This document shows, in pieces, positions 13,636-17,529 of a DNA stretch of 64,000 nt. How positions within the stretch are numbered: position 1 is the first letter of the stretch; every line of letters begins with the position of its first letter. The notes under the pieces were generated by a model. It was given only the letters and a program-made list of their open reading frames with translations, was not told the DNA's origin and searched no databases. The translations under genes were made by a program, and so were the position numbers. This DNA is from Fibrobacter sp. UWR2 (GTDB lineage: Bacteria; Fibrobacterota; Fibrobacteria; Fibrobacterales; Fibrobacteraceae), in the NCBI RefSeq assembly GCF_002210285.1, contig NZ_MWQE01000004.1, forward strand, positions 1-64,000, written 5' to 3'.

Positions 13636-13704
13636 GCTTTTTCCCTTGAAGATTTTTTATGTTGTTGTTTTTTTCACGCAATTTGATTATATTTGCAATA
13701 CAGA

Positions 13705-14001
13705 ATGAGCGTCTGGGATTCCCTTACAGTTGATGACTTGCCTAACGAGGACTTGAAATGGGTCGCGAAGTCCTTGGGGCTCGATGTCGCCAAACGTATC
13801 TGGAAGAAGTTCGCGGGCAACCATGTAGCCTGCCCAGCCCGGATGACGCCCAACGCAGTGCGCCGCTATATGCGCGACAATTTCGACAAGCCCGTTCACC
13901 AGCTTGCGTTTGAAACGGGTCTCAGCGAGCGAACGATCTACAGGTATATGAACTTTGTCGAGAAGAAGCCCGAGCAGTCGGGGCAGCTTAGCCTGTTCTA
14001 G
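13705..14001 (+). CDS. Mor/C-like late transcription activator
   Basis: 98 residues from ATG 13705. The sequence shows the Mor family layout: an N-terminal dimerisation part (LTVDDLPNEDLKWVAKSLGL), then MTPNAVRRYMRDNF, then an HTH (PVHQLAFETGLSERTIYRYM) and a Q..LSLF tail. In Mu, Mor activates the middle promoter and C the late promoters by binding palindromic sites. Only one such gene is seen here, so it may serve both roles. It sits upstream of all structural genes. An upstream in-frame TTG at 13693 is less likely. Confidence 0.8.
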   Translation: MSVWDSLTVDDLPNEDLKWVAKSLGLDVAKRIWKKFAGNHVACPARMTPNAVRRYMRDNFDKPVHQLAFETGLSERTIYRYMNFVEKKPEQSGQLSLF

Positions 14002-14003
14002 GG

Positions 14004-14543
14004 TCATTTGATTCCCTCCGTCAAGTGTTCCAAGAGTGTTTCCTTGAATCCTTCGATGTCTTCGGGCTGCACCACCATATATGGGCGTGCAGGGATGTTT
14101 GACCCTGGGTGGTGGACCTTTCCGTAGAATACCTTTGTTCCGTTACGCATAAAGGCGAGCGCCTTGTTATTCCGATGCCATATATCGTGCGCACTTGTCT
14201 TGCCGCCGAAGTTGAGTATGCGGGCGTAAACCTTGTTTGTGCCAACCGTGGCACTATCCTTGGTGCTGGACTTGACGAATGAACCCGACAAGTTCGACCC
14301 GCCCGTTCCCCTTGATATCAGGCGGCCCTTGCCGTACTTGCTGATTACCCACTTTTTGTTACCACCGATAAAGGAGTCCTTGGAACTGTAACGACCGCCT
14401 ACCTCGAAGTTGTATTCGATGGAGCTTTGCAGGTCCTTGGCGATGATTTTCATTGCCGTGGACATGTCTTTTGCCTTGTTATCGATGCCTTTTAGCGTGA
14501 TTTTGCAATTTTTGTCATCGATTTCAGCATTAATCATTTGCAT
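14004..14543 (-). CDS. gpG-like virion morphogenesis protein
   Basis: 179 residues. The pattern MSTAMKIIAKDLQSSIEYNF... ... GSNLSGSFVKSST...GTNKVYARILNFGG...IPARPYMVV matches Mu gpG / phage virion morphogenesis proteins (Y..I...G, RPF/RPY near the C-terminus). Mu gpG acts in head-tail joining. It is the last gene of the leftward late operon and converges on the Mor-like gene with a 2-bp gap. The -35 of a plus-strand promoter overlaps its start codon. Confidence 0.8.
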   Translation of the reverse strand: MQMINAEIDDKNCKITLKGIDNKAKDMSTAMKIIAKDLQSSIEYNFEVGGRYSSKDSFIGGNKKWVISKYGKGRLISRGTGGSNLSGSFVKSSTKDSATVGTNKVYARILNFGGKTSAHDIWHRNNKALAFMRNGTKVFYGKVHHPGSNIPARPYMVVQPEDIEGFKETLLEHLTEGIK

Positions 14544-14566
14544 TTCTCCTGAAAAAGTGGTATATT
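14538..14566 (+). promoter_or_regulatory. Sigma70-type promoter for candidate small RNA
   Basis: TTGCAT (14538-14543) and TATATT (14561-14566) are separated by exactly 17 bp. A start seven bases after the -10 box falls at A14573, the first base of the closing stem of the RNA below. Confidence 0.6.
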
Positions 14567-14572
14567 AGGGGT

Positions 14573-14679
14573 ATAGGATATGTGAGTAAGTGTAAAAGCC
14601 GGACACTTGGGTGGTCATACTAAGCTATGCTCATCGTATAATGGGAAGACGACGGTCCATTGACATATCCTATTTTTTT
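14573..14679 (+). ncRNA. Candidate phage small RNA between gpF and gpG
   Basis: About 107 nt, bounded by a predicted promoter start and an intrinsic terminator. Its two ends pair perfectly over 11 bp: ATAGGATATGT (14573-14583) with ACATATCCTAT (14663-14673), followed by a T run. Inside are a hairpin AAGTGT/ACACTT (14588-14608, 9-nt loop) and a second possible hairpin TCGT/ACGA (14134-offset bases, i.e. 14634-14652). The RNA runs opposite to the flanking late genes and overlaps the gpF stop codon. It has no ORF of note and matches no RNA family known to me. A regulatory RNA expressed from the prophage is inferred. Confidence 0.6.
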
Positions 14680-16055
14680 ATTGGTTTGTGATTTTCGTAA
14701 AAATCTCGATCATCAACGACATATCCGGTTTTGTAGGTCATCGTTTTTGTTCTTTCATCAAAGCCAATAACGATTTTGTTTCTTTTTCTCTTCTTCGTTC
14801 CGTTTTCAACAATCTCATAAGGTTTCGAGAAGAAGAAAACTTGACCATTATTTGAGTCAATCTTGTAAGCTGGAGTGTATTCGTCCAGAAGTTCAGGCAC
14901 CTTTTCTAGCGTTTCCTTTGTTAATCCGGTATGTTTTTCCGCTTCGCGTAGAGTGTGCCTTATTCTCATTTGGTCAAACGTTATGATGGGCGATTTTAAT
15001 TGGCTGAAATTTTTCTGGCAGAAAGTCTCTACGGCACCTTCCAAAATTCCGGCGGCAACCATCGATTTATATTGTGATTCAACCCTATCTACGGAAGCGT
15101 CGATTTTCACCATTTCCTTGAAGTTTTTCTGTATTTCCTGCTTTTGCTGTTTGGTGAGTTCGTACTTTGCATCCTTTCCATCAATCATGTCGATGGTCTG
15201 TTTCAGGTATTCCTGGTGCCTGTAACTGTAGGCTCCGGGGGCATAGTCCCAACCAGCATCGGGGTAAATTTCCTTGCCGCCGACCTTATAGCCGCGGGTG
15301 GTTATCTGCTTGCCCTGAATGGTCTCGGTCTTGCTTACAAAATTTTCGGGCTTGCTCTTCTGGACTACTTCATCGGCTGACTTCCCGTAAAGTTTCTTGA
15401 TGCCCTGCTTTGTGTAGGACTTGGTAGAACAGTGACAGTTCCAGCCCTTGTGCCCGAAGAAAACTTCCCAGAACGGGTCGTCGTACCGGAGAACCATGTT
15501 GTGCAGAGCCGCGTGGCTTTCTCTTGGGTGCGGGTTCAGCGGACCCTTTGGAATGGCAACGAAACGCCAATACGGTGCGATGTCGGCCTCTTCCATCATC
15601 TCCTTGTATTTGCCTGCATCGTATGCGGTTTTCATGTTGGTGCCGTATATGGTCCTTAAACGGCGATGGTCTACTACGATTTGTTTTGTTTTTCCTGTTT
15701 CGGGGTTGACGGCGTTGACATCACCCCACCATCCCCTTTTCTTTAAAGTCGGAATGATGTCGTTCGCAAAGTCCTGATAGGAGGTTCCATTCTTTATCGC
15801 GGCTTGGATTGATTTCTTGATGTCCTTGACTAATGCAATCGATGTAGCCTTCGAAACGACGAAAACCCTGTCGTGCTGTTCACGCATGGTGTCCGTCCAG
15901 TCCCAATGACCGAAAACGCCCTTGGGTCTCTTCTGGGCTTCCTTCGCTGTCAATACCGCCTTCACCTGTTTCTTCTTGAAGAAATCGATGGCGTTCTTCG
16001 GCTCCATCTTCCAGGCGGCATTGATCATGGCTTGCAGTTCGCTTTTATCAGGCAT
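14670..16055 (-). CDS. gpF-like minor head protein with C-terminal nuclease-like domain
   Basis: 461 residues. The first ~300 match Mu gpF / SPP1 gp7 head-morphogenesis proteins: HPRESHAALHN, then GHKGWNCHCSTKSYT, the conserved GWNC.C element. The remaining ~150 residues are not part of standard gpF. The end (AEKHTGLTKETLEKVPELL ... KIVIGFDERTKTMTYKTGYV) resembles phage-associated Barnase-EndoU-ColicinE5/RelE-like (PBECR) nuclease modules fused to head proteins. The head role is well supported; the nuclease-like assignment is an inference from pattern. It overlaps the portal gene by 8 bp. Confidence 0.8.
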   Translation of the reverse strand: MPDKSELQAMINAAWKMEPKNAIDFFKKKQVKAVLTAKEAQKRPKGVFGHWDWTDTMREQHDRVFVVSKATSIALVKDIKKSIQAAIKNGTSYQDFANDIIPTLKKRGWWGDVNAVNPETGKTKQIVVDHRRLRTIYGTNMKTAYDAGKYKEMMEEADIAPYWRFVAIPKGPLNPHPRESHAALHNMVLRYDDPFWEVFFGHKGWNCHCSTKSYTKQGIKKLYGKSADEVVQKSKPENFVSKTETIQGKQITTRGYKVGGKEIYPDAGWDYAPGAYSYRHQEYLKQTIDMIDGKDAKYELTKQQKQEIQKNFKEMVKIDASVDRVESQYKSMVAAGILEGAVETFCQKNFSQLKSPIITFDQMRIRHTLREAEKHTGLTKETLEKVPELLDEYTPAYKIDSNNGQVFFFSKPYEIVENGTKKRKRNKIVIGFDERTKTMTYKTGYVVDDRDFYENHKPIKK

Positions 16056-17529
16056 CGGTACGGCCCTGCATTTCGGAGAGCAGTAGACACTTCGTTACCG
16101 CGTCGTCCATTTTCTTGCTGCTAAGGTTCGGGAGAATCTTGTAGAGTTCTTCTTCGAACTGTTCATAGTTGCCGCAGTGTTCCGCAAGGTCGATGATGGG
16201 CCTTGCCAGTTCTTCAATCTGTTCCTGCAAGTCTTCTGCAGAAAGGTCCTGGATCATCTTCTCGATTTTGGTCTTGATACCACCTTCGGCAAAGCAGTGG
16301 CAATCGTCATCATGTTCGGCGAACATTCCGCCCTGCGGCTGGACTTCTGTCATCTCGAAATACTTTTCGTCGATGCCGTAAATGTCGGTGATATACTGGG
16401 CGTTGAACTTGACGCCGAGCTGCGTGAGCTTGATATCGCGATTGAGTCGTGCTTCTTGAAGGTCTTCCGGGAGGATGATGTTCATCCACGGGATTTCCTT
16501 TTCGTTTGGCCAGTTGATTTCGTAAATCCAGCGGATGAGCTGGTTGATGCTGGACTCGATCATCGCGGCATCGTCGAGGGCGAGGTCTGCGCGGACATCG
16601 TTGTGGACGGTGGCCATCGCCTGGGTGCCGCCGGAACTTGTCTGCTCGGTGGTGAGCGTTTCGCCGAGCCACGCCTTTGACATCGCCTGGTCTGCCCAAT
16701 CGACGATTGCCTTGTGCGGGTTCGCGTTTGCCGCGCCTGCTTCCAGGAGTTCCACGGAGCCGGTCTGCGGGATGACTGCGACTGCATCGCGGACAAGGCC
16801 CACGAGCATTTTGAGGAAGTCTTGCTGTTCCTTTTCGGTTGCCGTCGGCGGGACCTTGCCGATTGCCTTGGGCATACCGTATTTTTCGACAAAAAGCATC
16901 CAGAACTTGAGACCACCCTTCTTGAAGGCGAGTGGCCAGAAGCAGCGGGAATATACCGCGTTTCCGTATGGGTTCGCCGTGGTGGGGCGGTTGCGGGTGA
17001 CAAGGAACTTGCGCTCGGGCATTTCACGGCGCGAACCGTCGTTGGTCTGCAAGAGCAGCTTGCTGTCGCTATCGAACTTGAACCATTCCTGCTTGCGGTC
17101 CTTGATTGCGGTGGGGAGTATGAGCGTGCCCAGATCGGTCTGGACTGTGTTCCACACGATTTCGTGTACGGCATATCCGAAGCCGATCGCTTCGAGCATC
17201 TGCGATATGACGTTTCGGAGGTCGATGTTCCAGAGGTATTCCTCGACAAACTTTGCCTTTTTCTGGTCGCCCTTGCTTCCGTCGATTGTCCAGGCTCGGC
17301 TGGTGATGGATGCAAAGCGCTTGTTTTTCACCGCGTCAAGGTGGGCGTCTATCATTTCGCGATAGACCTTGATGTTGCCACCGTTGTTCTTTAGGATGGT
17401 GTCGGGGTTCGGGAGGTAGTCGAGCCCGGTGACTAACTCCGCCACGTTTCGGGTGGCGACTTCCTTGGCGAGCTGCAAATCGCGCTTGTCCTTGGGTTCG
17501 TTCGGGTTATTTTTGGTCTTTTTGCTCAT
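16048..17529 (-). CDS. Portal protein (DUF935, Mu gp29-like)
   Basis: 493 residues. The run of features LPNPDTILKN...G..KVYREMIDAHL, RAWTIDG, GFGYAVHEIVW, NPYGNAVYSRCFWPLAFKK and MLFVEKYGMPKAIGK is diagnostic of DUF935 portals of Mu-like phages. The portal dodecamer forms the DNA entry vertex and docks the terminase. Length is typical. The C-terminal third includes an acidic region with an H.DDDCHCF motif. It follows TerL by about 130 bp on the leftward late operon. Confidence 0.9.
   Translation of the reverse strand: MSKKTKNNPNEPKDKRDLQLAKEVATRNVAELVTGLDYLPNPDTILKNNGGNIKVYREMIDAHLDAVKNKRFASITSRAWTIDGSKGDQKKAKFVEEYLWNIDLRNVISQMLEAIGFGYAVHEIVWNTVQTDLGTLILPTAIKDRKQEWFKFDSDSKLLLQTNDGSRREMPERKFLVTRNRPTTANPYGNAVYSRCFWPLAFKKGGLKFWMLFVEKYGMPKAIGKVPPTATEKEQQDFLKMLVGLVRDAVAVIPQTGSVELLEAGAANANPHKAIVDWADQAMSKAWLGETLTTEQTSSGGTQAMATVHNDVRADLALDDAAMIESSINQLIRWIYEINWPNEKEIPWMNIILPEDLQEARLNRDIKLTQLGVKFNAQYITDIYGIDEKYFEMTEVQPQGGMFAEHDDDCHCFAEGGIKTKIEKMIQDLSAEDLQEQIEELARPIIDLAEHCGNYEQFEEELYKILPNLSSKKMDDAVTKCLLLSEMQGRTDA

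Follow-up and report, generated by a model that had tools for sequence, protein, structure and literature searches.

A probable small RNA gene between gpF and gpG

The head gene region of a phage in Fibrobacter sp. UWR2 appears to contain a compact gene for a structured RNA, which is probably the immunity factor (RNA antitoxin) of a MuF polymorphic toxin formed by the adjacent head protein, gpF. The stretch analyzed (positions 1 to 64,000 of contig NZ_MWQE01000004.1; its whole 64,000 nt are referred to here as the window) holds phage IMGVR_UViG_2839079599_000001, and L-numbers and G-numbers denote the loci and genomes used for comparison. The RNA gene (plus strand, 14573 to 14679), recognized by matches to covariance model R1 and by covariation, lies in a slot between two minus-strand genes. 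One encodes gpF, a minor head protein that joins a MuF domain to a variable C-terminal domain and is a proposed polymorphic toxin (14670 to 16055; PF04233, 2e-20; phrog_220, 2.9e-71), and the other, the constant flank of the slot, encodes a gpG-like virion morphogenesis protein (14004 to 14543; PF05069, 2.9e-12; phrog_26). The gene for the portal protein (16048 to 17529, minus strand; phrog_113, 9.4e-113) lies immediately upstream of gpF, the arrangement seen in MuF phages.

The promoter of the RNA (plus strand, 14538 to 14566; sequence context, GTGGTATATT) consists of TTGCAT at −35 (14538 to 14543), a 17-bp spacer, and TATATT at −10 (14561 to 14566), and it overlaps the gpG start codon, with the gpG start at 14543 falling inside the −35 element. 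Reading from the predicted start, A14573, to the end of a T run at 14673 to 14679 gives an RNA of 107 nt. Its ends pair perfectly over 11 bp (AUAGGAUAUGU, 14573 to 14583, with ACAUAUCCUAU, 14663 to 14673) to form the closing helix, P1, and the 3′ arm of P1 leads into the T run, which makes an intrinsic-terminator-like end (14663 to 14679). This end covers the gpF stop codon (14670 to 14672, minus strand), an overlap of 10 nt when counted to the end of the T run. A first-pass annotation had proposed this promoter, start, length, T run, and end pairing, together with the overlaps of the RNA end with the gpF stop and of the promoter with the gpG start; direct reading found all of them in place. 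The RNA is likely expressed independently of the late genes.

Promoter-like sites in the 14-kb region number 7, with 6.9 expected, and the window signal alone is unremarkable; the RNA's terminator is not among the 14 terminators listed for the same region. The fold of the window RNA taken by itself has a z-score of −1.83, with 8 of 200 shuffled sequences equally stable. Identity as a known Rfam family was dropped because the window gave no match at the gathering score (only chance-level matches appeared at E ≤ 10 in the region), and identity as a transfer RNA (tRNA) or transfer-messenger RNA was dropped because ARAGORN recognized none, with no tRNA gene found in the window; the cloverleaf topology described below is a likeness only. 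A short coding gene was also rejected: the longest open reading frames (ORFs) range from 12 to 39 aa among the RNA relatives, with none above that length, and are not conserved; the longest inside the window RNA is 22 aa.

Conservation of the fold among relatives

A search of 100 host relatives recovered the promoter region, and then the RNA, from other genomes of the genus, and a first consensus from 7 sequences had four helices, in which 16 of 24 pairs were changed on both sides. A covariance model run on 80 genomes of the genus returned 14 with a match at E ≤ 1: 13 strong matches and one (G012, E = 0.39) that was judged false and dropped because its surroundings look coding. Among 167 genomes of the phylum, 16 matched at E ≤ 0.01, including G150 and G162, which belong to other genera, and one false match (G149, 30.7 bits) that was dropped because it lies inside an ORF. 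Most of the data come from one genus, and many of the genomes are metagenome-assembled genomes (MAGs).

Twenty cmsearch matches, 19 of them distinct, share one four-helix cloverleaf; they were drawn from 16 sources known or expected to hold the RNA and thus test structure, not frequency. Standard pairs fill 94.7% of cells, and two-sided changes occur in 19 of the 24 pairs. The covariation score was 0.636 versus 0.240 in shuffles, of which 0 of 500 scored as high, and in a control with the partner slid by 1 to 3 columns, pairing fell to 37 to 48%. Nine of the 10 modeled P1 pairs are changed on both sides, and the proportion of paired cells is 97.9% in P2 (plus strand, 14589 to 14593 with 14603 to 14607), 89.2% in P3 (14610 to 14613 with 14632 to 14635), and 93.7% in P4 (14640 to 14644 with 14657 to 14661), the loop inside P3 being the most variable part of the RNA. 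A contact of three pairs between the P2 and P4 loops, with 70.2% of cells paired in one register, is suggestive and is not claimed. Since G-U cells (12) outnumber A-C cells (4), the plus strand is favored as the RNA. The relatives take the small RNA far beyond chance, and it looks real. The first-pass annotation had named loss of compensatory pairing among relatives as an outcome that would speak against it; the pairing is kept, and the compact, self-closed promoter-to-terminator RNA it described is borne out by a fold conserved across relatives.

Slot occupants and gpF C-terminal types

Searching the 80 genomes for gpG yielded 21 matches spread over 19 of them, some of the matches being truncated copies in cassettes (see below). 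Beside full gpF genes the slot is hypervariable: the promoter position is the same, with a GGTATATT-type −10 element in most whatever the occupant, and the occupants seen are the cloverleaf RNA, other noncoding RNA (ncRNA)-like segments, an ORF of the DUF7675 family (PF24723), or a 58-aa ORF. BLASTP clustering of the last 165 residues of 19 Fibrobacter gpF proteins yielded four groups. In group C1 (the window, L030, L031, L065, L066, and L092), the slot holds the cloverleaf RNA in 6 of 6 loci; in C2 (L191, L194, L195, L197, L200, and L202), it holds other segments in 6 of 6, termed ncRNA-like on the basis of an absent conserved ORF and single folds, not covariation. DUF7675 occupies the slot in 5 of 5 C3 loci (L190, L193, L196, L199, and L201) and the 58-aa ORF in both C4 loci (L198 and L205). 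C-terminal type and occupant thus match four to four over the 19 loci, with 0 exceptions. The cloverleaf RNA lies directly beside every C1-type locus examined (the window, L030, L031, L064, L065, L066, L092, and L220). When the RNA model was run on 14 sources, among them nine C2 to C4 loci, L220, and three distant phages, only L220, a C1-type phage fragment, matched, and a whole-genome scan of the 80 genomes placed no cloverleaf RNA at the remaining four C2 to C4 slot loci either.

From their motifs, we take the C3 domains to be papain-like and the C4 domains to be zincin-like (HExxH); Pfam returned no toxin family for C3 or C4 gpF domains. DUF7675, found beside gpF with a cysteine-histidine type C-terminus at the five C3 loci, is a candidate immunity protein family. 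It also occurs in cassettes of L028, L029, L043, and L096. The 58-aa ORF beside the HExxH-type gpF of L198 and L205 has a relative in a cassette of L047.

Domain and RNA also diverge jointly. Between the window and L065, DNA identity is 92 to 93% over gpF aa 1 to 293, 97% in gpG, and 100% in the promoter, with 56.5% in the C-terminal domain and 61.7% in the RNA. L031 and L092 present the reverse pattern, being 85 to 95% identical in the 3′ part of the C-terminal domain and the RNA and mostly 68 to 84% identical in the flanks. At the level of sequence, such joint divergence of the gpF C-terminus and the RNA is the pattern of toxin-immunity modules.

gpF as a candidate MuF toxin

The gpF protein has an N-terminal MuF domain, is encoded directly after the portal gene, and carries a variable C-terminus on a conserved N-terminus, all of which are marks of MuF toxins. 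Residues 300 to 461 (14673 to 15158, minus strand) are proposed to form a BECR/RelE-type RNase toxin domain. The predicted model of the domain (predicted local distance difference test [pLDDT], 81.2; predicted template modeling score [pTM], 0.78) weakly resembles BrnT, RelE, HigB, and CdiA-CT, with Z of 3 to 5, and its matches in BFVD are annotated "Nuclease" and "Phage MuF C-terminal domain." In C2-type gpF, PBECR2 (PF18810), an RNase family, exceeds its cutoff in L191 and L195 but falls short of it in L200 and L194. The modeled structure suggests that the window gpF C-terminal domain is of RNase type. No match to the domain was found among INPHARED phages.

According to the available text of PMC5576092, loading in the head followed by injection is the presumed route of MuF toxins, and an ORF of <150 aa follows 89.4% of 191 MuF toxins; in that of PMC11699363, Bxa (a MuF fusion) and Apk2 are neutralized by neighboring proteins. 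On these figures, an adjacent immunity ORF is a usual, not a strict, MuF feature. No small immunity ORF lies beside the toxin gene in the window, where the slot instead holds the RNA, and we propose that the RNA replaces it.

Cassette arrays beside Cas1-Cas2

In other Fibrobacter genomes, a piece of the phage locus (promoter, RNA, terminator, gpG fragments, and sometimes gpF) is found between copies of a 34-bp repeat. The repeat core is present in 59 of 80 genomes and was not found in the window's own genome; repeats are much alike inside one array and differ between arrays. Counted between repeats that differ from one of seven consensus strings by ≤6 mismatches, there are 85 intervals (cassettes) of 158 to 3,075 bp, and 58-bp gaps were seen beside degenerate end repeats. 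Twelve cassettes, from loci partly chosen for it, contain the cloverleaf RNA. Query proteins recognized pieces of the gpF-gpG slot in 22 of the 85 cassettes, 12 of them with DUF7675, and most slot-derived cassettes have a short toxin tail or none. It appears that bacteria have taken copies of these antidotes into their own gene arrays.

In several Fibrobacter genomes, such arrays stand right behind cas1-cas2 without cas9 (L027:13605-18127, L092:2656-11580, L090:5427-9395, L096, L097, L098, and L099). Many adjoin Cas1 (TIGR03639; 7.8e-82 in L027) and Cas2, and in loci with enough flank the array starts 530 to 614 bp from the Cas1 match. Cas1 was detected in 28 of 80 genomes. The long-array Cas1 proteins (n = 11) form one clade (support, 99/98) with no cas9 beside them, and E176, H233, and E248 (G022 numbering), presumably the catalytic residues, are present in 11 of 11. 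One Cas1 group, of nine loci, adjoins cas9, with ordinary 66- or 78-bp periods in eight of the nine. Many Bacteroidota and other relatives have ordinary arrays of 66 or 76 to 77 bp, and the spacing test found no long array replacing the short one behind Cas1 outside Fibrobacter; under looser settings, repeats 593 and 2,288 bp apart appear behind Cas1 in an Alloprevotella MAG (L121:10254-13182), the closest to the long-array clade by its Cas1. From their position and from the behavior of the repeats, we infer that Cas1-Cas2 made the arrays. Readings of the arrays as integrons or as ordinary clustered regularly interspaced short palindromic repeat (CRISPR) arrays were dropped, because the spacing, Cas1-Cas2, and control loci do not fit.

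One array region of G105 (L089:5216-6964) resembles a stock of immunity RNAs, with five cloverleaf RNAs that differ in type, and an occupant of the ncRNA-like type seen in L202 recurs in the same genome's array at 77% identity (L089:7962-8059). In two other genera of the family (L221:4960-4988 and L222:4473-4501), the RNA is beside a single copy of a CRISPR repeat that we take to be type I-E-like; no second copy of that repeat was found in L221 or L222, and L222 also has an ordinary array with a 66-bp period.

Proposed function of the RNA

An RNA immunity factor would work as follows. gpF would combine a constant MuF head part with an exchangeable BECR/RelE-type C-terminal domain; this domain, probably an RNase, would be carried in the virion and delivered into the next cell along with the phage DNA. 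In the lysogen, the plus-strand RNA would be made from its own host-type promoter, and its rigid four-helix cloverleaf would bind and block the toxin domain, as type III RNA antitoxins do, possibly by mimicking the structured RNA substrate of the toxin. The lysogen would thereby be protected against the toxin it encodes itself as well as against incoming relatives of the phage, and Fibrobacter cells may have copied protein and RNA immunity loci into their gene-sized cassette arrays, mostly with little or no toxin. A direct RNA inhibitor is suggested because an RNase-type domain is paired with a rigid RNA, and toxin neutralization is favored because the RNA is tied to the C-terminal type, appears to replace the immunity ORF, and has been taken up by hosts mostly toxin-free. 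These observations leave the more general role given in the first-pass annotation, that of a regulator of host or phage genes, without support.

Several results weigh against RNA immunity to an RNase toxin. Pfam gave no match for the window C-terminal domain, the best match among PDB sequences (E = 0.25) was not convincing, and Foldseek against the PDB returned nothing at E ≤ 0.001; NTF2/ketosteroid-isomerase folds came out on top, and these matches were discarded as unrelated, with low template modeling scores. At a Z of 5, a VIA-align match can reflect a common arrangement. The 19 slot loci are related phages of one genus and are non-independent. Capture into cassettes is not confined to MuF immunity, as the other 63 of the 85 cassettes hold different or unrecognized genes; the 3,075-bp cassette of L092 holds a whole gpF with the RNA; and in G058, array copies and a phage copy occur together, so the former do not simply keep the phage out.

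One alternative is that the RNA controls toxin synthesis, as a type I-like antisense RNA or riboregulator acting on gpF or gpG mRNA. Its opposite-strand position, with its end over the gpF stop and its promoter over the gpG start in the window, speaks for such a role, but the extent to which it overlaps gpF varies, being about 10 nt in the window, 7 nt in L065 and L066, 1 nt in L031 and L092, and 0 in L030. Moreover, the conserved feature is the internal cloverleaf with its compensatory changes, not complementarity to gpF, and the RNA is retained in cassettes where little or none of gpF is present. Because the overlap shrinks to 0 among relatives, we consider antisense control unlikely, and antisense action in cis on gpF was dropped; the antisense overlap noted in the first-pass annotation is present in the window but is not conserved and is probably incidental.

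It is also improbable that the RNA is a moron regulator or a defense or anti-defense RNA (e.g., an RNA anti-CRISPR) unrelated to gpF toxicity. Its own host-type promoter and terminator, the hypervariable slot, and the copies in CRISPR-like repeat arrays beside Cas1-Cas2 are consistent with this, but presence of the RNA tracks the gpF C-terminal type exactly, and small ORFs, a form expected for immunity genes, are among the alternative occupants of the slot. The array repeat was not noticed in the RNA on reading, with no formal search made. A cis-acting element of the late mRNA on the minus strand, such as a processing site or intercistronic structure, would fit the position between two codirectional late genes; this is very unlikely, as both promoter and T run have the orientation of a plus-strand transcript, and it was dropped because of the wobble pairs and because orphan copies outside the operon retain promoter, RNA, and terminator. 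That the segment is no RNA at all and instead a conserved DNA site, e.g., for recombination or packaging, would suit its repeated copying into arrays, but the compensatory changes in four helices of divergent sequences, and the cassettes from the same slot that have DUF7675 and no RNA, make it highly implausible.

The preferred reading, an RNA immunity factor, can be extended to a broader and more tentative proposal. It is possible that virion-borne polymorphic RNase toxins with structured-RNA immunity (at least one cloverleaf family and several further ncRNA-like families) coexist with an effector-less Cas1-Cas2 that captures whole functional genes, these RNA immunity genes among them, as gene-sized "spacers," building for the host an inheritable array of antidotes against toxins delivered by phages.

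Relation to known systems and significance

Immunity to polymorphic toxins is generally taken to be protein-based. As far as described in the available text of PMC5576092 and PMC11699363 (Bxa), MuF polymorphic toxins resemble gpF in having a MuF domain with a variable C-terminus, a position after the portal gene, an immunity slot, and commonly nuclease types; they differ in that their immunity factors are proteins, whereas here the slot holds a structured RNA, or ncRNA-like segments beside a second set of gpF proteins. The MuF surveys, in the same available text, sought small ORFs only (PMC5576092 and PMC11699363), and phages with an RNA antidote would therefore be scored as lacking immunity. 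In the open-license PMC literature, we found no account of comparable RNA immunity or of gene-cassette arrays linked to Cas1, and no paper joining polymorphic toxin, RNA antitoxin, and immunity protein.

In type III toxin-antitoxin systems (ToxIN, CptIN, and TenpIN), an RNA neutralizes a protein RNase directly, and by analogy the cloverleaf RNA would do the same. Those systems have an antitoxin RNA of tandem repeats that precedes the toxin within one operon; here, by contrast, one cloverleaf follows the toxin gene and is read from the other strand, and the toxin would be RelE/BECR-like rather than ToxN-like and part of a virion protein. If the RNA is indeed an antidote to a delivered RNase, the type III principle extends from intracellular pairs to phage-borne weapons, and a simple search suggests itself, for ncRNAs beside BECR-type toxins that lack an immunity ORF.

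The cassettes share with orphan immunity arrays (Bacteroidales acquired interbacterial defense clusters and Vibrio cholerae type VI secretion system arrays), as far as the available sources describe them, the presence of immunity genes without toxin; unlike those arrays, the Fibrobacter cassettes are bounded by CRISPR-like repeats, adjoin Cas1-Cas2, and include RNA genes. The likeness to type II CRISPR arrays lies in the Cas1 (TIGR03639), 34-bp repeats that vary little within an array, leader-like shared flank, and array right behind cas2, but here cas9 is not adjacent and the spacers are 158 to 3,075 bp long and hold genes, compared to about 30 to 40 bp. Integrons, too, string gene cassettes together with a site that recurs; here, however, that site is a short CRISPR-like repeat and Cas1-Cas2 is the neighboring enzyme (no search for an integrase or attC was made). 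Should the host arrays function as proposed, CRISPR adaptation proteins would collect working genes rather than guides, turning a memory of sequence into a memory of function.

Directly behind gpG, on the opposite strand, the window also contains a gene for a Mor-family activator (13693 to 14001, plus strand; PF08765, 1.9e-5), and similar Mor-family genes are found at the same place in related phages.
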